NCBI GenBank assembly: GCA_902792985.1
Contig: CADBBT010000001.1
Coordinates: 56,847-120,846 of the forward strand
Source of the DNA: Oscillospiraceae bacterium
GTDB taxonomy: Bacteria; Bacillota; Clostridia; Oscillospirales; Acutalibacteraceae
Length of the DNA: 64,000 bases
Direction of reading: 5' to 3'
The position numbers and the translations under genes are program-made. Under the pieces are notes generated by a model. The model did no database searches. It was not told the DNA's origin and saw nothing but the letters and a program-made list of their open reading frames with translations. The stretch's first letter is position 1. Every line of letters begins with the position of its first letter. This document shows, in pieces, positions 4,582 through 64,000 of this stretch.

Positions 4582-6270
4582 TTATTCTTCATTCACTTTT
4601 ACGCCGCCGTCCTTCGCCTTTTGCAAAATTGCATCCAGCGGCGACTGTTTCGGTGCGCTCTCCTGCGGCGCTTCGGTCTGCTTCGGCTGGCTGAAGATGC
4701 CCAGGCGATATTTCTTTCCGGTCACGCGCTGCACTGCCTCGCGGATGTCGCGCGCATGGCTGCCGGATTTGATGAACACAGGCAGCGCCGGGTTGTCGCT
4801 TTGCAAAAGTACAAAATCGCCGTGCAGCACTGCGGTGGAATTCATCAGCACGCCCCAGAGCGGTTTGTTCAGCTCTGCAAGCACACCGAGCACCTGCGGC
4901 CAGCGGTCAAACATACGGTCCTCCTGTGCCGCTTCTTCCGCCGGCGGTGTCTGCGGCGGTGCGCTCTGTTGCGCCTTCGGCGGCGTGGCGGGTTCGTCCT
5001 GCGCGTCTGCCGTTGGTTCGGTCACGTCAGGAACCGGCTGCGGCTGCACCGGCGGCGTTGGGCTCGGTGCGGTCGGCTTCTGCGGCGCGGCGGGTGCCGG
5101 CGCAGAAACTGCGTGGGGGCTCACGCCGTTTTGCAGCGATTGTTCCAGTGCAGCAACACGTCTGCGCAAAGCGGAAAGGTCGTCGCCGACCGCAGGCGCA
5201 GTCAGGCGCAGCAGCGTCATTTCCAGCTCCACACGGCGGTTGACGCCTTTTTTGATGTTTGCGCCCGCCGTTTGCAGCGCATCGATGCAGGAAAGGATCG
5301 TTTCCAGCGTGTAGCGTTTGCTCTGTGCACGGTAGTCTTCCAGCTCCTGTGCTGTGCAGACCAGCACGTCTGCGGCCGCTTTCACGGTCTTGACGATCAT
5401 GAGATTTCGAAAATGCAGCGTCAGATCGGCGCAAAGGCGCTCCATATCGCATGAAGCGGCATACAGCCGGTCAAGCAGTTCCATCGCCCCTGCAGCGTCA
5501 CCGGAAGCCACCGCGTCCGAAAGCGCAAACAGATGGTCGCGTCCCGTCATGCCGGCAACCTGCGTCACCAGCGCCGCCGTCACATGGCTGCTTTGCCCGA
5601 TGCACTGGTCCAGTGTGGAAAGCGCGTCGCGCATGCCGCCGTCTGCAAGGCGGGCGATCAGTACCGCCGCGTCGTCGTCGAGCGTGAAGCCCTCCTGTGC
5701 GGCAATAAACTGCATACGTCCGATCATCGCCTGCGGTGCCACACGTTTAAAATCAAAGCGCTGGCAGCGGGAGAGGATCGTCACGGGGAGCTTGTGCACC
5801 TCGGTCGTCGCAAGAATGAATTTGACGTGCGGCGGCGGCTCTTCCAGCGTTTTGAGCAGCGCGTTGAACGCGCCGATGGAAAGCATGTGCACTTCGTCGA
5901 TGATGTATACGCGGAATTTGCACGCCACGGGCGCAAACGAGGATTCCTCGCGGATATCGCGGATGTTGTCCACACCGTTGTTGGAGGCGGCGTCGATCTC
6001 GACCACATCGAGGATCGCGCCGGAATCGATCCCGCGGCAGATCTCACATTCGCCGCAGGGGTTGCCGTCTTTCGGTGAAAGACAGTTGACCGCCTTGGCA
6101 AGGATCTTTGCGCAGGTCGTTTTTCCCGTGCCGCGCGAACCGGTAAAAAGATAGGCATGGGAGAGCTTGCCGCTTTCGATCTCCGAGGCCAGGGTCGTGG
6201 TGATGTGCTCCTGCCCCACAACGTCGGAAAATACCTGCGGACGGTATTTGCGATACAGCACCTGATACAC
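4582..6270 (-). CDS. dnaX: DNA polymerase III subunits gamma/tau
   Basis: DnaX is the clamp-loader ATPase and replisome organiser. The AAA+ domain shows Walker A GSRGTGKTT, a zinc-binding cluster (CLSPKDGNPCGECEIC), Walker B DEVHM and the sensor I stretch LATTEVHKLP. A Pro/Ala/Gln-rich linker (roughly residues 380-455) leads to the C-terminal tau domain. I chose GTG at 6270 (MYQVLYRKYRP), which has AAAGGGGG at good spacing and matches the family start. The longer frame reaching 6351 would run into the SRP RNA. The resulting length is about 562 residues. It heads the dnaX-ybaB-recR operon. Confidence 0.96.
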   Translation of the reverse strand: MYQVLYRKYRPQVFSDVVGQEHITTTLASEIESGKLSHAYLFTGSRGTGKTTCAKILAKAVNCLSPKDGNPCGECEICRGIDSGAILDVVEIDAASNNGVDNIRDIREESSFAPVACKFRVYIIDEVHMLSIGAFNALLKTLEEPPPHVKFILATTEVHKLPVTILSRCQRFDFKRVAPQAMIGRMQFIAAQEGFTLDDDAAVLIARLADGGMRDALSTLDQCIGQSSHVTAALVTQVAGMTGRDHLFALSDAVASGDAAGAMELLDRLYAASCDMERLCADLTLHFRNLMIVKTVKAAADVLVCTAQELEDYRAQSKRYTLETILSCIDALQTAGANIKKGVNRRVELEMTLLRLTAPAVGDDLSALRRRVAALEQSLQNGVSPHAVSAPAPAAPQKPTAPSPTPPVQPQPVPDVTEPTADAQDEPATPPKAQQSAPPQTPPAEEAAQEDRMFDRWPQVLGVLAELNKPLWGVLMNSTAVLHGDFVLLQSDNPALPVFIKSGSHARDIREAVQRVTGKKYRLGIFSQPKQTEAPQESAPKQSPLDAILQKAKDGGVKVNEE

Positions 6271-6558: not shown

Positions 6559-7963
6559 AAATGCTATCGCCTGCATGAAACAGATTGCGAATGTTTTCAA
6601 TAAACTCTTTGATGAGATCAATGATGCGCTGCAGCAGTCCACGGAACCCGCCAACGGAAGAACTCTCGTTCTCCTTGGGTTCTTCCTGCGGCGGCGTATA
6701 GGTGCTCAGCGAAGAGAAGGTCACCTTTGAATTCTGCGCGGCTGTCTGTGCGGTTGAGCCGTCTTCTCCGTAAACAGTGATCCACGGCGCAGGCGTCAGT
6801 CCGAGCGGCGCTTCACCGAGGTAGTAAGTCTGCACATCGGCGCTTGCGACCGGCGCAGCGTTTTGCGCAGCGGCTGCTGCGTCTGCCATTTCGTCCAGCT
6901 TTGCCTGGAATGCTGCGGTGAAGGTCATCTGCGCGGCCGTAATCAGGTTGTCCTGCTCGTCAAACACGGCGGGTGTAAAGGTGCCGAGAGCATCCACGGA
7001 ACTGAACGAGACGGCATTCAAGCCGGCGATTTTGCGCAAACGCGCATAAAGCTCCTTGACCGTACCGTCCGCCGTTGCCGACCGTGTGAACAAATAGCGG
7101 GACGCCAGCGCGATCTGCTCGTTTTCCTCCGCCTGGATTTCGGAAAGCAGCGCGGCTTTTTCTCTTTCGTTGGTCAACGCCTGCGCGTCCCGGATACGCT
7201 GATCACGCTGTGCAAGTTCATCGTTCAGCACCAGCAGCACCTTTGCAAGCGTTTCAGCGACCGTCGCGTCATGCTGCAGCGCGATCGCGTTCACGTTCAG
7301 AAGATCGTCCTGTGTCACTGTGGACGGAACGGCGGACGCAAAGCCGGTCAGCGACAGGCTGTGGCCGAGCGCAAGGGCGGGGTTGCGGATGATGATGCGC
7401 TGCGCCAGAGTGCTGTTGATCGCGTCGTTGCTCAAATACATCAACGACGCCGGCAGCGAGATCGTGCGCGGCAGATACGGGATGCCGAGCGTTACGGAAA
7501 ACGCGCCGTCCTGAATGGAGGTGACACCCTCTTCCACAACGATATCGCGGATGATGCCGTAAAGTTCGGTATAGTACGCCTTTGCATCCGGCACACCGTA
7601 GGTCAGCGCGTTGCGCAGCGTGGGATAGGCGTCATAGCCGTATTTTTTTGCAAGCTGATCCTCCAGCGCGGGATACCACGGGAACGAGCGCACATTGTAC
7701 GTCTGCTTGTCGATCTCAAACCGGCCGGTCGATTCGTTCAGGCGCATCGAATCCATCGGATACTGCACGATCTGCTGCTGTAAAATGCCCTGACCGCTGA
7801 CAGTCAGAACGCCTTTTTCATAGCTCCAGTTCATGTTGTCGCCGCAAGGGCCGTAAGCTGCGATCTCGTCTGCTGCAAAAGAAACGGTGCCGAGACAGGC
7901 GACGGTGAGCAGCGCGAGGGTCAGACTCAAAAGCACAGACAAAAGTTTCTTGCTGGTTTTCAT
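6557..7963 (-). CDS. Exported BspA/LRR_5-like protein with amphipathic C-terminal tail
   Basis: The start at 7963 follows GGAGC and gives a signal peptide (residues 1-28: MKTSKK, hydrophobic core, cleavage near SFA-AD). The mature protein opens with YGPCGDNMNWSYEKGVLTVSG, the lead-in of BspA/LRR_5 surface proteins, and contains a short leucine-rich-like stretch (TSIQDGAF..ISLPASLMYL). A long Ala/Gln-rich helical region follows. The last ~25 residues (starting GLLQRIIDLIKEF) form an amphipathic helix without a sortase motif. It is probably cell-surface associated or secreted; the ligand is unknown. It is 469 residues and monocistronic. Confidence 0.7.
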   Translation of the reverse strand: MKTSKKLLSVLLSLTLALLTVACLGTVSFAADEIAAYGPCGDNMNWSYEKGVLTVSGQGILQQQIVQYPMDSMRLNESTGRFEIDKQTYNVRSFPWYPALEDQLAKKYGYDAYPTLRNALTYGVPDAKAYYTELYGIIRDIVVEEGVTSIQDGAFSVTLGIPYLPRTISLPASLMYLSNDAINSTLAQRIIIRNPALALGHSLSLTGFASAVPSTVTQDDLLNVNAIALQHDATVAETLAKVLLVLNDELAQRDQRIRDAQALTNEREKAALLSEIQAEENEQIALASRYLFTRSATADGTVKELYARLRKIAGLNAVSFSSVDALGTFTPAVFDEQDNLITAAQMTFTAAFQAKLDEMADAAAAAQNAAPVASADVQTYYLGEAPLGLTPAPWITVYGEDGSTAQTAAQNSKVTFSSLSTYTPPQEEPKENESSSVGGFRGLLQRIIDLIKEFIENIRNLFHAGDSI

Positions 7964-57920: not shown

Positions 57921-60089
57921 TCACTCCTCCATTTGCTTTCCGAGGAAACCCGCCGCCACCTGCACCAGCTTTTCCTCCGTCGCTCCGGGCGGGGTCGGCA
58001 GATCGTCGCCGAGCACCAGCACCGCGCCCATCACGTCGCCCCCGCCGAGGATCGGCACCATGATCGCCGCCGTTTTTTCCGCATCCTCACACACCGGCAG
58101 CATCGTATCGCTGCGCGACGCGACAAATGTGCTGCGCGATTCCATCGCTCTTTCCAGCTCCGGCGAAATGCGCTTGTCCAGCACCTGCTTTTTTGAAACG
58201 CCCGCCGCCGCGATGATGTGGTCGCGGTCGCAGATCACGACCGGCAGCCCCGTCGTACGGTAGAGCACGTCCGCATACTGCTTTGTGTAGGGCTCCAGCT
58301 CCCCGATCGGGCTGTATTTTTTGAAGATCACTTCGCCTTCTGTGTCGGTGTAAATCTCCAGCGGGTCGCCGCTGCTGATAACATTGACGTCATAAACCTT
58401 GTCCTCGCGCTTCTCTGTGCGCTGGACGATGACCGTGTGTAAGCTGTTTATGACGCCTGAATTAAAATTTACGGTGGCCTCCGTTTCTTCGGGCAGTGCG
58501 CCGCTTTGCAGGATGGATTCGATGTCGCTTTTGAGCTTGACATGGATGTGATCTTCAAAGACGAAGATGCGTTCCAACAGGAATTCCAGGTCGTTCCGGT
58601 CAAGCTTGTTCTTGTCAAGAATGTTGTCTAAGATGGCGATCGTCTCTTTGGCGATGCGGTTGACGCGGATGACGGTGTTGTATTTGTCATGGGTCAGCGC
58701 GATCTGATTCTGCAGCCCCTCGATGCGCTTGTCGCAGTCGCCCAGCAGGGTTTCATAGGTCGTTTCGATCAGCGCTTCCTTTTCCGGACTTCGCATGATC
58801 TCCCGCGCCATCTGTCTGGAAAGGATTGCCCGCTCGCCGATGGCGTCTGCCAGCAGATCCTCCAACCGCGCGGCAGCGTCGGTCTGGGCTTTCAGGGTTT
58901 CCTTTTCGTCGGTGATCGACTGTTCCAACTTTTTCATCATCTCTGCGCTGGTTTCGCGCACGCTTTGCAGGTAGCCCTTCAGCAGCACGTCCAGCGTTGC
59001 GACCTTGATGAAGTGGCTGCTGCAGGCCTTGCGCCCCCGGCGGTGATAGGTGCCGCAGCGGTAGGCGTCGTTGCCGCCCGGACGGCTCATGGGGAACATC
59101 GGGCTGCCGCAGTCGCCGCAGACCATGAAGCCGGAATAGATATTGTCATACTTCTTGACGCCGCGGTAATGGTCGGTGGAGCGCTTTTGCAGCATCCCCT
59201 GCGCAATCGCAAACGTGCGGTAGTCGATGATCGGTTCATGGTGGTTTTCAAAAACGATGTGCTCGCTGCTGTCTTTTCGCACATCGTCGCCGTTGATCTT
59301 TTTGCGCGTGTATTTCCCCTGCCGCAGTGTGCCGATATAGAAATCGTTGAAGAGGATCCCTTGAATGGTCACGATGCTCCAGGTGTCCTTCACCTTGCGG
59401 TGATACACGCCGCCGCTCGCTTCGACCCGGGCACGCTCATTCATGCGCGGCGTCGGGATGTGCTGCTCGGTCAGGTAGTTTGCGATCTTCTGATAGCCCC
59501 ATCCGTCGAGATACAGCTTGAATACCTTTTCAACCACGGCGGCCTCGCTTGGCTCAACTGCAAACGCGCCGGTCTTGCTGTTCGTGATGACGTAGCCGTA
59601 AGGCACGGAGCAGATCCATTTGCCCTCCTCCTGCCGCCGCTTGATGACGTTTTTCACCTTTTTGGAGGTGTCGGTCACAGGCATTTCGTTGACGAAGAAA
59701 TAGATCTGGATGCGCATCCAGTCGTCGTTCGTCGGGTAGTCGATGGAATCACCGATGGCGATGATGCGCACCCCGGCGTCACGCAGGGTTTCCAGCTCCA
59801 CCAGTCCGTGGCCGTTCCGCCGCGAAAAGCGGGACAAATCCTTGACGATCAGAATGTCATACCGGCCGGAGAGCAGCTGCGGGCGCATCCGCTGATAGCC
59901 TTCTCGCTGCGCAAAGGTATAGCCGCTGCGGTCGCGGTCCTCAAAAAAGGTCAGCTCCGAGCCGGGAAAGGTGCGCGAAACATAGTCGCTGATGATCGAC
60001 TTCTGGTTTTCAATCGACGTGTTCTCATTCTCTTTCTCATCGTCCACCGAAATACGGCAGTAGGCGGCGATGTTGAATGTTTCGGTCAT
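57921..60089 (-). CDS. Large serine recombinase fused in frame to the C-terminal part of SpoVT
   Basis: The 722-residue product has two origins. Residues 1-573 are a large serine recombinase: catalytic Ser in AYCRISVDDE, IVKDLSRFSR, a recombinase domain (VPYGYVITNSKTGAF..), a zinc ribbon (CGDCGSPMF..CGTYHRRGRKAC) and a coiled coil. Residues 574-722 (from GDPLEIY, junction near 58370) match SpoVT from about its codon 32: GEVIFKKYSPIGEL, VVICDRDHIIAAAGVSKK, ILGGGDVMGAVL, and the end AAGFLGKQMEE. The AbrB DNA-binding half of SpoVT is missing. The start at 60089 overlaps the upstream gene (ATGA). The fusion marks the integration site of the mobile element. Confidence 0.9.
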   Translation of the reverse strand: MTETFNIAAYCRISVDDEKENENTSIENQKSIISDYVSRTFPGSELTFFEDRDRSGYTFAQREGYQRMRPQLLSGRYDILIVKDLSRFSRRNGHGLVELETLRDAGVRIIAIGDSIDYPTNDDWMRIQIYFFVNEMPVTDTSKKVKNVIKRRQEEGKWICSVPYGYVITNSKTGAFAVEPSEAAVVEKVFKLYLDGWGYQKIANYLTEQHIPTPRMNERARVEASGGVYHRKVKDTWSIVTIQGILFNDFYIGTLRQGKYTRKKINGDDVRKDSSEHIVFENHHEPIIDYRTFAIAQGMLQKRSTDHYRGVKKYDNIYSGFMVCGDCGSPMFPMSRPGGNDAYRCGTYHRRGRKACSSHFIKVATLDVLLKGYLQSVRETSAEMMKKLEQSITDEKETLKAQTDAAARLEDLLADAIGERAILSRQMAREIMRSPEKEALIETTYETLLGDCDKRIEGLQNQIALTHDKYNTVIRVNRIAKETIAILDNILDKNKLDRNDLEFLLERIFVFEDHIHVKLKSDIESILQSGALPEETEATVNFNSGVINSLHTVIVQRTEKREDKVYDVNVISSGDPLEIYTDTEGEVIFKKYSPIGELEPYTKQYADVLYRTTGLPVVICDRDHIIAAAGVSKKQVLDKRISPELERAMESRSTFVASRSDTMLPVCEDAEKTAAIMVPILGGGDVMGAVLVLGDDLPTPPGATEEKLVQVAAGFLGKQMEE

Positions 60090-60970
60090 GTGTCCTCCTC
60101 CTTTTTCGGCAGCTCGTTCGCCACGGCTTCGATCAGGTCGCTCATCAAAAGGCCAAGCTGCGATGCGTTCTTCTCCGTGACAACAGGATGCCCGGTTTCG
60201 GCTTCGAGCGCCTGACGTGCGGTGCCTGCAACCTTGCCGCCGCGCTGCGCCACTGTGCGGCTCTCGTCAAAACCGTCCGGTTTCTCCGCTTTGGAAATGT
60301 CACGCGTGGACGCTTCGGCGAGCATGGTCAGCACCAGTTCGGTGTCGGTCATGTTGTCGCGCAGGTTTTCTTTTTTGAGTCCCTTGAGATTCTTGTATTG
60401 CCGCGTGGTCATGCCGGACCACGCTTTTGTGATATCATCGGTCAGAATTGCAAACTCCTTGCCCTTCTCCACGCCGCGTTTCTGCCATTCCTCGGTCAGC
60501 TCGTTGCGGATACGGATCGCCAGCAGCCGCTGATGCACCCACTCCTCGCCGTAGCCCTTTTTGAGATAGGTTTCCAGCGCGCGGTCGATCGCCTGTTCCG
60601 GGTCGATGGTTTCCTCAATGCGCTCGCTGCCGACCCGCGCCAGCCACAGCTTAAACGGCTCCGCCTTTGGCGACGGCACGGACTGAATGATGCGCAAAAG
60701 CTGTTCCGTGTCGGCAACGTCGGTCAAACGTTTTTTTCCGTCTTGCGCTTTCATTTTCAACTGCTTACAATCTGTAAGCAGTTCATCCGCGCCCTCGGAT
60801 TTCAGTCTTTTTTTCAAAACCGCCCAATAAGTGCTCGCGTGACGCGCGTCCGGCTGATCGGTCAACGCACCGACCACGTCCACCACGGAGAAATACCACG
60901 TCTCTTTTTCTTCGTCCCAGGCCATGCGGATCGGCTGGTTTTCAAACTGCTGCAAATTTTTTGGTTCCAT
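60086..60970 (-). CDS. BRO-N domain protein, phage antirepressor-like
   Basis: The 294-residue protein has an N-terminal BRO-N domain (FENQPIRMAWDEEKETWYFSVVDVVGALTD..ARHASTYWAVLKKRLK) followed by KRLTDVADTEQLLRIIQSVPSPKAEPFKLWLARVG, as in BRO/KilA-type antirepressors of mobile elements. The C-terminal part is charged and helical. It is probably the element's regulator. Its promoter overlaps a palindrome (61041-61062). The recombinase start overlaps its stop. Confidence 0.82.
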   Translation of the reverse strand: MEPKNLQQFENQPIRMAWDEEKETWYFSVVDVVGALTDQPDARHASTYWAVLKKRLKSEGADELLTDCKQLKMKAQDGKKRLTDVADTEQLLRIIQSVPSPKAEPFKLWLARVGSERIEETIDPEQAIDRALETYLKKGYGEEWVHQRLLAIRIRNELTEEWQKRGVEKGKEFAILTDDITKAWSGMTTRQYKNLKGLKKENLRDNMTDTELVLTMLAEASTRDISKAEKPDGFDESRTVAQRGGKVAGTARQALEAETGHPVVTEKNASQLGLLMSDLIEAVANELPKKEEDT

Positions 60971-61025
60971 TATTTGTCTCCTGTTCCAAATGTTGTTAAT
61001 TGAAATTTAGATGTTTTCCATCAAC

Positions 61026-61062
61026 ATTGTATCATATGTAAACAGGGATGTCAATCCCTGTT
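61026..61062 (-). promoter_or_regulatory. Promoter with palindromic operator for the BRO-N/recombinase genes
   Basis: Minus-strand TTGACA (61049-61054), a 17-bp spacer and TACAAT (61026-61031). The -35 lies in the centre of the perfect palindrome AACAGGGAT-N4-ATCCCTGTT (61041-61062), so a bound repressor would mask it. Confidence 0.75.
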
Positions 61063-61081
61063 GAAATGTTGTTTGGCTGCG

Positions 61082-61330
61082 TCATCTCGACGCTTCGCGC
61101 TCTTTGCGGCGCTGTTGCTTCATAAGATCGTAGTTATGCTTGAGCAGCAGATACATATCGTCTTCCAGCTTGCTCTCGCCCGATTCAAACACCACCGGCA
61201 AATAGCCCTGCGCTTTCCACTCCTTGTAGCGCGGTTTGAGAGAATCCAGGAGTGCCTGATCCTTGCCCTCTGCGCGCGTCAGCCAGATGCGCACCTGTCG
61301 CAGCGGCTCTTCCACATAGTCAATTTTCAC
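61082..61330 (-). CDS. Small element-encoded protein of unknown function
   Basis: I chose GTG at 61330 (MKIDYVEEPLRQVRIWLTRAE) because GGAGGTGA precedes it by 8 nt; the open frame extends to 61393. The 82-residue product is charged with a basic C-terminus (KQQRRKEREASR). Similar short proteins sit between parB-like and regulator genes in Clostridia mobilizable elements, but I cannot name a function. Confidence 0.6.
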   Translation of the reverse strand: MKIDYVEEPLRQVRIWLTRAEGKDQALLDSLKPRYKEWKAQGYLPVVFESGESKLEDDMYLLLKHNYDLMKQQRRKEREASR

Positions 61331-61459
61331 CGATCGCTTCACCTCCCTTCGCATAGTTTTGGGAATCTTTGGAAAGATTATGCCGGAAGGCAAAGCGATC
61401 TGCGGAAATCATTTTACCATCCGGCGTCCTTCCGTGCAAATGTGCGAATCGTCTGCACA

Positions 61460-62470
61460 TCATCGTTCTCCCCTGTCTTTTTGCCGATCCAGATACCGGC
61501 AGTAGTGCTCCAAGGCTTTCAAAAGAAAAACCTGCACGACCTGCGGCGTCAGCTCCGTTTTGGCGTAGTTTCGGATCTTATCTATCGGCAGCTTCTGATA
61601 CGGCAGCGTGACCTTTTCCTGCTGATTGGGTTTCGGCTTTGTCATCGTATGAAAGACCGCGTCCATGTCCAACTGCCCCTGCGCGGACAGCTTGCGCATC
61701 TGCTGCGCCTGGGAGAGCGACGGTGTGCAGTCTTCGCTCTCGATCGTTTCCAACAGATTGTTCTGCTCATCTTCTGTGAGATAAGAGAGTTCGACGGCAG
61801 GCCGCAATGCGATCTTGCCTTCGTCCACCAAACTGAGCAGCCCCGGTTCCAGTTGGTTCAGACGAATATAACGAAAGATTTGTGCTTGACTTTCGCCCAC
61901 CATTTCGGAAAGCTCTTTGCTTGAATTCAACTTATTATCCAGTGGAGAAAAAGTTAAGTCCGTCCGTTTGCCTTGATGCTTCATCGCGTCCAGTCGCAGC
62001 TTATACGCCTTGGCCTTTTCACTAGGCAGAATATGTTCCCGATGCAGATTGCTGTCCACCACCATGATCGCGGCTTCGTCACGGCTGACATTGCATACAA
62101 TGGCAGGGACAGTTTCAAGTCCCGCCTTCTGTGCGGCATACAGCCGCCTGTGTCCGCTGATGAGTTCAAAGACGTGTGCGTCGTTCTGCTTCGGCATTAC
62201 AATCAAAGGCGTGAGAATCCCGCGTTCTTTGATGCTTTGCACCAGCTCGTCCATTTCTTCGTTGTCGATCACCTGATACGGATTGTCGGCAAACGACAGG
62301 ATCATATCCACAGATATGTTGATGGGATGATGCTCTGCCTTGAGCTTTCGCAGCACTTCGCTTTCGATAAACGCGTGAAGCTCCGGCGTCCGCGCCGCCG
62401 CGTGCTCCGGCGGAACATCTGCCCGGATCTCATCCGGGGTTCGTAAATCTTCTTTCAGTTTTCTCGCCAT
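61460..62470 (-). CDS. ParB/Noc-like partition protein
   Basis: The 336-residue protein has a ParB N-terminal nuclease-like/CTPase domain: INISVDMILSFADNPYQVIDNEEMDELVQSIKERGILTPLIV, then the GHRRLYAAQKAG motif and HREHILPSEKAKAYK. A helix-turn-helix follows (SSKELSEMVGESQAQIFRYIRLNQL). It probably assists stable maintenance or transcription control of the element. It starts at 62470 after AAAGGAGCC. No parA is visible. Confidence 0.9.
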   Translation of the reverse strand: MARKLKEDLRTPDEIRADVPPEHAAARTPELHAFIESEVLRKLKAEHHPINISVDMILSFADNPYQVIDNEEMDELVQSIKERGILTPLIVMPKQNDAHVFELISGHRRLYAAQKAGLETVPAIVCNVSRDEAAIMVVDSNLHREHILPSEKAKAYKLRLDAMKHQGKRTDLTFSPLDNKLNSSKELSEMVGESQAQIFRYIRLNQLEPGLLSLVDEGKIALRPAVELSYLTEDEQNNLLETIESEDCTPSLSQAQQMRKLSAQGQLDMDAVFHTMTKPKPNQQEKVTLPYQKLPIDKIRNYAKTELTPQVVQVFLLKALEHYCRYLDRQKDRGER

Positions 62471-62502
62471 TCATCTGGCTCCTTTCATTTATAATAGTTT
62501 TG

Positions 62503-63957
62503 TTATCTTGCGCCGTCGTCTCTGCGACGGCCTTTGTTTTGCTCCTGTGTGCGGGATGGGAAATACCATTCCCGCATTTGTTCTTTTTCGGCTTCGACCT
62601 TGCCCCGGAGCAGAGGCTGGTCATCGATGATCCGCTGCGCCAGTTTGAGCTTGTTGCGAAGTCCGGCCAGTTCCTCGGTCATGGTGTCGCGCTGTTTTGT
62701 GAGCTCAGTCAGTTTCGTCGGGTCTTTGCAGCCGCGGATCTTGTTGTAGACCTTGCTGCGCTCAAACTTAAGCTGTTCCATGGTCAGCGACGTGTCAGCT
62801 ATGAACCGTTCTACATCGGCATAGTTGTACAGCTTTTCATTGACGGCAAGGTCGATCTGCTCGCGCATAAAAATGATCTTTGGCTGGGAGAAGCGCATCT
62901 CCGGCGTTTTCGGGTGCGGACTCGCATTGCGGGCTTCCAGCAGCGCACCGGCAAACCACAGCGCCAGAAACAGCAGCGAGATCACAGGTGCGCCGACGAT
63001 CACGCCGCCGATGATCGCCTGCACGCAGCGGCCGGTCAGTTCGGCAAAAGCCTGTTCGCTTTTGTAGGTCTGCCACGATTCCTCAAACTCGAAATCCTTG
63101 AACCGATAGACATATACCTCGCTGCGGGCATAACGCTGATCATTGAAATAGCGGATGTTGTTGATGTTGGCCTCGTCCCGATCCTGCGTCCAAATACGGT
63201 TGCGGATCGCTTCCGGCGTATAGTCCGCGCCGAGGTTCGCCATCCGCACACCATGTTCATCCGTCCGGCTCTTGATCGTGGCATAACGGTCGGGGCTGCC
63301 GAAGTTTGCAATCGTGTAGCCCTGTTCGCGCATGATCTGCAGAAAGCGCCGCTGATCCAACGAGCGTGCGATCGCAAAGTCGATGGCGTCCTTCATGTGG
63401 TCATACTTCGTCTTGATGCCCTTCTGCTGCGCCATATACACGTTGTACGGCACACGCTTGCCCTCCGGCTTCAGGATCACAGATAAGCCGTGCTCATAGC
63501 AGATGCGGTCAGCGGTCTCACGGAACCGGTTATACATCGCCTTGTTTTCGTTCATCTTTTTGCCGTCGGTCATGGACACGCTGTTGATGACGATATGGCA
63601 GTGCATACAACGGGCGTTCTGATGGGTGGCAACAACAATCTCGTAATCTTTGCCCCACATCTCTCTGGCAATTTCCATACCGATCTCCTGTGCCTGCTGG
63701 GCTGTCACTTCGTAGAGCTCCTTCGTGTCCGTCATCTGCTGCACCGCATATTCTGGGTCGCAGTTGATGCCTTCGACCAAGAGTTTTCGCTCGGTTTGCA
63801 GCATGGTCTTATCTTTATCCGCGGCATAGTGGATGGAACGCAGCAAAGCGCACTCCCCATCGGAGAAGCGCGCTTCGTCTGTTTTGCGTTTGTCGGCAGC
63901 ATAGGCGATCACGGCACCGATGTGACCCTTGATCGGCCAGATCCGCGTCACTGCCAT
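62503..63957 (-). CDS. Relaxase/mobilisation protein (MobA/VirD2-like)
   Basis: The 484-residue relaxase nicks the transfer origin and pilots the strand. The N-terminal MAVTRIWPIKGHIGAVIAYAADKRKT carries the likely catalytic Tyr. The metal-binding histidines are in ATHQNARCMHCHIVINSV (H-x-H). A hydrophobic stretch (AIIGGVIVGAPVISLLFLALWFAG) near residue 310 and a coiled coil follow. It overlaps the upstream gene by 10 nt. Its presence with a serine recombinase marks an integrative mobilizable or conjugative element. Confidence 0.9.
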   Translation of the reverse strand: MAVTRIWPIKGHIGAVIAYAADKRKTDEARFSDGECALLRSIHYAADKDKTMLQTERKLLVEGINCDPEYAVQQMTDTKELYEVTAQQAQEIGMEIAREMWGKDYEIVVATHQNARCMHCHIVINSVSMTDGKKMNENKAMYNRFRETADRICYEHGLSVILKPEGKRVPYNVYMAQQKGIKTKYDHMKDAIDFAIARSLDQRRFLQIMREQGYTIANFGSPDRYATIKSRTDEHGVRMANLGADYTPEAIRNRIWTQDRDEANINNIRYFNDQRYARSEVYVYRFKDFEFEESWQTYKSEQAFAELTGRCVQAIIGGVIVGAPVISLLFLALWFAGALLEARNASPHPKTPEMRFSQPKIIFMREQIDLAVNEKLYNYADVERFIADTSLTMEQLKFERSKVYNKIRGCKDPTKLTELTKQRDTMTEELAGLRNKLKLAQRIIDDQPLLRGKVEAEKEQMREWYFPSRTQEQNKGRRRDDGAR

Positions 63958-64000
63958 AAGCGTTTTCCTTTGCGCGACTTGAAGTAAGACGCGATCTTGC
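63948..64000 (-). CDS. C-terminal end of an upstream element gene (partial)
   Basis: The frame reads KIASYFKSRKGKRLWQ-stop, overlapping the relaxase start by 10 nt. A gene directly before a relaxase is often a MobC-like relaxosome accessory, and the basic end fits, but too little is visible to name it. Confidence 0.5.
   Translation of the reverse strand, partial: KIASYFKSRKGKRLWQ

Follow-up and report, generated by a model that had tools for sequence, protein, structure and literature searches.

Intervening elements that interrupt sporulation genes lie in sigK, spsM, spoVFB, gerE and yabG, and their excision re-forms the gene, according to the parts of the reports that were consulted (PMC5595907, PMC10747680). 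Like the element described here, which splits spoVT, the elements skin, gin, vfbin, SPbeta and yin (in sigK, gerE, spoVFB, spsM and yabG, respectively) are presented in these accounts as using a serine recombinase and splitting the gene at a short core. As far as the same sources extend, the known targets sigK, gerE and yabG are mother-cell or spore-surface genes, whereas spoVT encodes a forespore regulator. The spoVT element differs further from the skin-type elements in that its attachment site attP lies inside the recombinase gene, with exchange of the C-termini, in the relaxase of the copy studied here and in its occurrence in many gut Clostridia; it is known here from its sequence. The genes spoVFB and spsM presumably also belong to the mother-cell or spore-surface class.

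The gin element in gerE of Bacillus cereus ATCC10987 is likewise a non-phage island in the gene of a sporulation regulator and carries restriction genes. Its serine recombinase GirC and additional factor GirX, as described in the consulted part of the report, can be likened to the components of the spoVT element. It differs by its three recombinase genes and by its site and hosts, and that part of the report mentions no gerE fusion. Another parallel is mycobacteriophage BPs, in which the attachment site is situated inside a phage gene and integration alters the product, as far as the consulted text goes (PMC4557955). In the spoVT element, by contrast, it is the recombinase gene that holds the site, and a host sporulation domain becomes attached. 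The gene holding the attachment site in BPs is reportedly the repressor gene. No report of an element intervening in spoVT was found in the open-access literature (subscription papers and preprints were outside the scope).

The window, i.e. the whole stretch of 64,000 nucleotides that was analysed, forms the final 64 kb of contig C1 of the source genome (2.60 Mb in 90 contigs, 89% complete), and its right edge is the contig end. All features given for the window are located on the minus strand. Positions 57921–60089 hold a single uninterrupted ORF of 722 amino acids with an ATG start, in which a large serine recombinase is joined to the C-terminal, GAF-like domain of SpoVT. The recombinase part (58359–60089, 577 codons to GDPL) is 53–98% identical to five aligned relatives. 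It has the domains of a large serine recombinase, namely Resolvase (residues 7–158), Recombinase (180–303) and Zn_ribbon_recom (318–370) in Pfam, together with a coiled-coil region. The 3' part of spoVT runs from codon 31 (GDPLEIY) to the stop (57921–58370); the GDPL codons occupy 58359–58370 and 149 residues are counted from that glycine. Pfam SpoVT_C is matched at residues 597–721 (138.5 bits, cut-off 27.5). The NCBIfam model TIGR02851 (spore_V_T) is matched over model positions 27–180 only, and the 154 bits obtained fall below the whole-protein cut-off of 235.9. The ORF and the Pfam match agree with the preliminary description, which had read a recombinase in one frame with the last 149 residues of SpoVT from GDPLEIY near 58370. 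It had also stated that the AbrB half is absent; the alignment to TIGR02851 begins at position 27. A complete SpoVT protein contains an AbrB and a GAF-like domain; with the element integrated, the two are encoded by separate ORFs.

The AlphaFold2 model of the fusion, built from 19 aligned fusions, has a mean pLDDT of 69 and a pTM of 0.39. Residues 535–591 are poorly ordered and a confident domain extends from about 593 to 722. Foldseek relates the model to serine integrases, with PDB entries 9dxd, 9rah (phiC31) and 9iu2 (Bxb1) in the top ranks, and to B. subtilis SpoVT (2w1t, 2w1r). The order of the domains is as in these large serine integrases, whereas their native tail is replaced by the poorly ordered linker and the SpoVT GAF-like domain.

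A profile search of the contigs of the source genome matched SpoVT_C once, in the fused ORF. The 5' part of spoVT had been expected at the far end of the element, beyond the right edge of the window. Contig C1 stops there, and the AbrB half was located on contig C6, where a PF04014 search matched C6:22377–22493 (minus strand). This other end of the element (C6:22329–22511, minus strand) is 22.4 kb from the end of C6. Its ORF has a GTG start and encodes SpoVT residues 1–34 (ending in IREGDPL), followed by 27 non-SpoVT residues and a stop. The orientation is consistent: reading from the 5' half covers 22.4 kb before C6 ends, and when the reading continues into C1 at its right edge, the fusion is reached after 5.6 kb. 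The two halves meet at a core of 8–11 bp. The attL core GGCGACCCGCT (58360–58370) is identical to the attR core on C6 and is adjoined by the element-side half-site GTCAATGTTATCAGCAGC (58371–58388), the left arm of a predicted near-palindromic attP. The insertion site is at about codons 31–34 of spoVT, close to the codon 30 estimated for attB in the preliminary description. The portion of the element within the window (58367–64000) ends with C1. If the stretch of C6 from the 5' half to the contig end belongs to the element, the full length is 28 kb or more; C6 and C1 are unjoined in the assembly and intermediate contigs may be missing. As in skin-type elements, the parts of a split sporulation gene flank the element in the same orientation, a short direct repeat (the core) is present at both ends and the element encodes a serine recombinase. 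We regard this anatomy as practically certain.

In a scan of species genomes, 391 sequences related to the recombinase were obtained, and the 80 best were analysed. In 78 of these 80 the frame continues through GDPL (once GDSL, once ADPL) into SpoVT_C; one of the 78, L156, is shortened by a contig end. The two exceptions are L104, with a frameshift at the junction, and L110, whose contig stops in the core. Since the same in-frame junction recurs in nearly all of these relatives, it is not due to chance and the joining of recombinase and SpoVT_C is confirmed. Record titles of the relatives name Oscillospiraceae, Ruminococcaceae, other Clostridia or Bacillota, and once just 'bacterium'. Isolates with the fusion include Butyricicoccus pullicaecorum DSM 23266, Oscillibacter valericigenes An411 and Anaerotruncus massiliensis AT3, and in the latter both halves are 14 kb apart on one contig of 3.03 Mb. 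The genomes of 50 of the 80 loci, mainly those on long contigs, were searched with intact SpoVT. The fused SpoVT_C is the single match in 49 of them, and G056 has an intact gene too. The 5' half is present in 42 of the 50, and in 22 it shares a contig with the fusion and lies upstream on the same strand, 12–87 kb away. In the family of G081, presumably the Oscillospiraceae, SpoVT_C occurs in 116 of 150 genomes. The insertion is sporadic there, because SpoVT_C is part of a frame of at least 580 amino acids in 21 of the 116 (counted by frame size rather than read singly, and including four fusions already known). Some contigs end within the core (L110, L173) or start within about 25 bp of it (L068 on G019:C12, L075 on G011:C4). 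An assembler might make such breaks if integrated, circular or empty junctions coexisted in the sample.

Of 15 elements fetched, 14 were parsed with a relaxed end pattern (the first pattern recognised 3 of the 15), and G062 was left out of the element counts. The parsed elements measure 12.0–24.2 kb. Their 5' halves encode SpoVT residues 1–33 (through GDP) followed by 24–30 in-frame residues, typically (S/L)QTTLT.WE.FCFGMLDLAKR.G(W/I). The resulting AbrB-tail ORF of 57–63 amino acids is open in all 14. The 3' end of the recombinase gene and the first codons of the tail together give a near-perfect dyad, TGTCAATGTTATCAGTGACGG-CGA-CCCGTCACAGATAACATTGACA, written here as a composite of several elements. 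This dyad places attP inside the recombinase gene, so that integration cuts both genes in frame and exchanges their 3' ends. Such a placement with reciprocal exchange of C-termini is new relative to the preliminary description, and it provides a natural case of an integrase in which the C-terminus indicates whether the enzyme's element is integrated. The displaced tail would be the recombinase's own C-terminus in the circle. In tail codons 7–22, beyond the half-site, diversity is 0.43, 0.32 and 0.58 at codon positions 1, 2 and 3, compared to 0.70 after the stop (40 distinct tails, which are not independent). By this lower diversity at the codon positions, the displaced tail is kept as protein. 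Tail sequences outside any spoVT context were observed in L242, L244 and L251 (G524, G416 and G398).

Within the genus (34 genomes), a complete or partial recombinase–SpoVT_C fusion is present in seven (the source genome G000, G029, G006, G015, G024, G011 and G007). In G019 the recombinase is on one contig and a SpoVT_C piece beginning just beyond the core on another. The tailed 5' half was found in G000, G029, G018, G015, G024, G019 and G025 as well as in G011, where it is cut by the contig end; one search for 5' halves covered 14 of the 34 genomes. Intact spoVT genes of 178–180 residues were read in 19 genomes of the genus, including G007. The uninterrupted genes of G002 and G010 span the core and align to the 3' half (G006 and G015) and to the 5' half (G015) with an overlap of 8–9 bp at the core, which defines the empty site. 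The idea that joining the halves restores spoVT holds at the level of sequence: if the halves were connected at the core, the gene would be whole and in frame, and intact relatives match across the core. The empty site is demonstrated with closer relatives because spoVT neighbours are not conserved at the genus level (1 of 19 intact loci shares a flank with the source genome, several flanks being short). G007 combines an intact copy with a split one, and the two share 96.3% identity over 271 bp. This double copy was rejected as proof of excision and is read as two strains in one bin.

Between the recombinase and its promoter, a slot that is variable among elements, the window encodes a Bro-N domain protein (phrog_15286, 60086–60970). 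The sigma-A-like promoter of the recombinase operon (TTGACA, 17 bp, TACAAT, then GTT) is at 61023–61054. At higher coordinates are a companion ORF of 103 amino acids (61082–61393), a ParB-like protein (61460–62470) and a MobA/VirD2-type relaxase (62503–63957), and the element is probably mobilizable by conjugation. The family of this relaxase occurs in 7 of the 14 parsed elements, in which part of the cargo was annotated. Beyond the small ORF, 42 of 69 distinct regions contain a box, CAATGTTATC, when one mismatch is allowed (0.45 expected from shuffles), as do 6 of 700 cargo windows. In the 42 regions the box overlaps the −10 of the sigma-A-like promoter, and 35 of the 42 have a TTG −35; the window's own box diverges (TACAATGTTGAT). 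The promoter is of vegetative type and is probably repressed by the recombinase, because the box is the att half-site sequence.

Besides the recombinase, just the ORF of about 100 amino acids is seen throughout the elements. Its profile, made from 10 of the 14 elements, matches all 14 elements, all 7 genus loci and 45 of the 48 loci that have more than 4.3 kb upstream (overlapping sets, some loci being counted under two names), and 87 of 90 matches are on the recombinase strand. It has no match in Pfam or PHROGs. By this association, the ORF at 61082–61393 is the best candidate for a recombination directionality factor. In 67 regions before the small ORF, no sporulation-sigma motif stood clearly above shuffles in a test of low power that did not recognise sigma-A either. 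The motifs found (expected) were 1 (3.0) for forespore, 0 (0.9) for strict sigma-G, 2 (1.1) for sigma-E, 2 (2.3) for sigma-K and 3 (1.9) for sigma-A. Before spoVT itself, a forespore-type promoter is recognised in 21 of 41 split and 14 of 19 intact copies, with 1.1 and 1.5 expected from shuffles; the pattern misses the spoVT promoter of the source genome. The shuffles used for the box and for these promoter motifs preserve base composition only.

The explanation that we consider probable, if short of firmly established, is that of a family's element which uses codons 31–34 of spoVT and can be removed again by excision. This horizontally moving element takes these codons as its attachment site. 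The integrated chromosome then encodes the AbrB-tail at one end of the element, the recombinase–SpoVT_C fusion at the other and no intact SpoVT. The recombinase and its directionality factor would excise the element as a circle, which would re-form spoVT exactly and return to the recombinase its own tail. The sources consulted in part describe a C. difficile spoVT mutant without heat-resistant spores, an essential role of SpoVT in completing sporulation of B. cereus and continued spore formation of B. subtilis in its absence (the latter two in PMC5061766). Since C. difficile and B. cereus need SpoVT to complete spores, B. subtilis less strictly, excision would probably occur before or during spore formation in lineages that still sporulate. 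Reversibility of the insertion is likely, and timing of the excision by sporulation is possible. Our confidence does not go further because SigG-like matches of at least 368 bits in 29 of the 34 genus genomes are all below the curated cut-off of 457, and because the need for SpoVT is not strict in all species. SpoIVA is present in 33 of the 34 genomes (32 above cut-off); the source genome alone gave no match, possibly due to its incompleteness.

The preliminary description had pointed to skin-type excision in the mother cell. This does not fit SpoVT: according to the partly consulted sources, the forespore is where SpoVT is made in those species for which its expression has been studied, and an excision useful to SpoVT would therefore have to reach the forespore chromosome. 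Excision from mother-cell or spore-surface genes may do no harm, as the mother cell is lost in any case. Repair of spoVT would have to take place in the cell from which the next generation arises, and this forespore location makes the spoVT element more surprising than another skin element.

A distinctly less probable alternative, which we regard as possible, is a simple parasite: the insertion would knock out spoVT permanently, the lineage would be asporogenous and excision would be a rare accident of transfer. The sporadic distribution, horizontal transfer and the lack of a recognised sporulation promoter for the recombination genes are in line with it. So is G027, in which contigs C72, C92 and C146 (L052, L047 and L058) carry a degraded spoVT 5' part together with a stray tail and the genome has no SpoVT_C match, possibly a case of lost spoVT. 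On the other hand, the 3' halves are in frame in almost all of the best 80 relatives and the 5' halves are open in every parsed element (recent insertions would look alike). Other sporulation genes are retained in the genus, the split copies keep the forespore-type promoter and the att architecture is exact. The omega values of split spoVT (119 pairs) are mostly 0.05–0.25 and reach 0.45, with some pairs saturated. They were rejected as proof of function after insertion: transfers are recent relative to host divergence, and, given this and the sporadic distribution, purifying selection on the halves may predate the insertion.

A permanent insertion would also agree with the searches for the excised form, although its absence from assemblies is weak evidence on excision. 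Pattern scans gave no circle (attP) junction in viral contigs or in 226 loci. Within 394 genomes of the order, a composite recombinase–tail peptide matched 26 (22 AbrB-tail attR ends, three stray tails and the unclassified L249), with no circle junction among the loci read. A degenerate attP pattern gave two matches with two mismatches in 77 genomes, which are probably due to chance. Plasmid records had no recombinase match at E 1e-60. Two phage records matched (4.2 and 9.2 kb); one is a spoVT fusion and the other ends before the core. Protein searches of viral contigs led to five loci, i.e. three fusions, one ending in the core and one N-terminal piece.

Returning to reversible insertion, a more far-reaching form, in our opinion improbable, is that the two chimeric proteins record the integration state and switch the recombinase to excision in the forespore. 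The AbrB-tail would exist only while the element is inserted, would be placed behind the forespore-type promoter of spoVT and is about the size of known directionality factors. If so, excision in the forespore, the germ line, would destroy both chimeras and restore spoVT and the integrating form of the recombinase. To avoid loss, the element would have to enter the spore in circular form and integrate again once the spore has germinated. The same arrangement at the identical position of spoVT is found in many other gut bacteria, and as its bearers are numerous gut Clostridia, some of them available as isolates, excision, spore inheritance and re-insertion are testable.

That the recombinase permanently gained a SpoVT-like sensor domain and acts as one protein at any site is very unlikely, even though the frame is widely open and a folded SpoVT_C domain is predicted. 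For 79 fusions (76 of the 80 loci plus G000, G029 and G024; L090 is the G029 locus, and L104, L110 and L156 were omitted), identities of recombinase and SpoVT_C are weakly correlated (r = 0.37, 3081 pairs). Recombinases of 93–94% identity are found beside SpoVT_C domains of 37–41% identity, as in L120/L148 (93% and 37%). The reverse is seen in L114/L147 (SpoVT_C 98%, recombinases 56%). By these identities, SpoVT_C goes with the host and the recombinase goes with an element that moves horizontally, which makes the junction an integration scar. An intact spoVT elsewhere, with the same domain on recombinases at unrelated sites, would have spoken for an ordinary domain fusion; instead, SpoVT_C is nearly always a single copy, the domain follows the host, the AbrB half is at the element's other end and close relatives show empty sites. 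An artefact of assembly or binning that joined unrelated sequence has a negligible probability: the source genome is a fragmented draft with the halves on two contigs, but the same junction is present in dozens of independent assemblies, including the A. massiliensis AT3 contig.

Several loci deviate from the simple arrangement. G029 has two extra attR-side ends of about 210 bp in the same orientation and in other contexts (C6:206515–206722 and 212572–212784, L061/L062). They are 87–89% identical to the end in the source genome and may stem from elements in a tandem or nested arrangement or be scars of secondary insertions. Two spoVT 5' parts per genome are found in G019 (C77:4023–4178 and 5239–5400, L067; the first copy has no start codon), G059 (C25:23235 and 25498) and G040 (C48:520 and C75:4658), and L070 (G015:C13) has partial 5' matches at 7757–7947. 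Elements may carry such captured spoVT fragments. In L015 (G019:C160), the 3' end of the recombinase and the core are followed by different sequence with an early stop instead of SpoVT_C, possibly a secondary insertion site; an ORF further along is presumably NuoE-like.

The cargo of the source genome's element includes LRR_5, cohesin and dockerin proteins, a LytTR response regulator with sensor kinase and an AlbA_2 protein that also matches the PADLOC pAgo model. In the G029 region, LRR_5, peptidase M23, ADP-ribosylglycohydrolase, cytosine methylase and helicases were found among 17 proteins tested. PADLOC, run on ten proteins from three elements, identified type I restriction systems in the G042 and G035 elements and an Orf5/HEC-06-like system in G042. 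The restriction systems in these two relatives point to defence islands that are mobile and linked to a sporulation gene. The element of G049 (L219–L220) contains a single ORF of 5361 amino acids.
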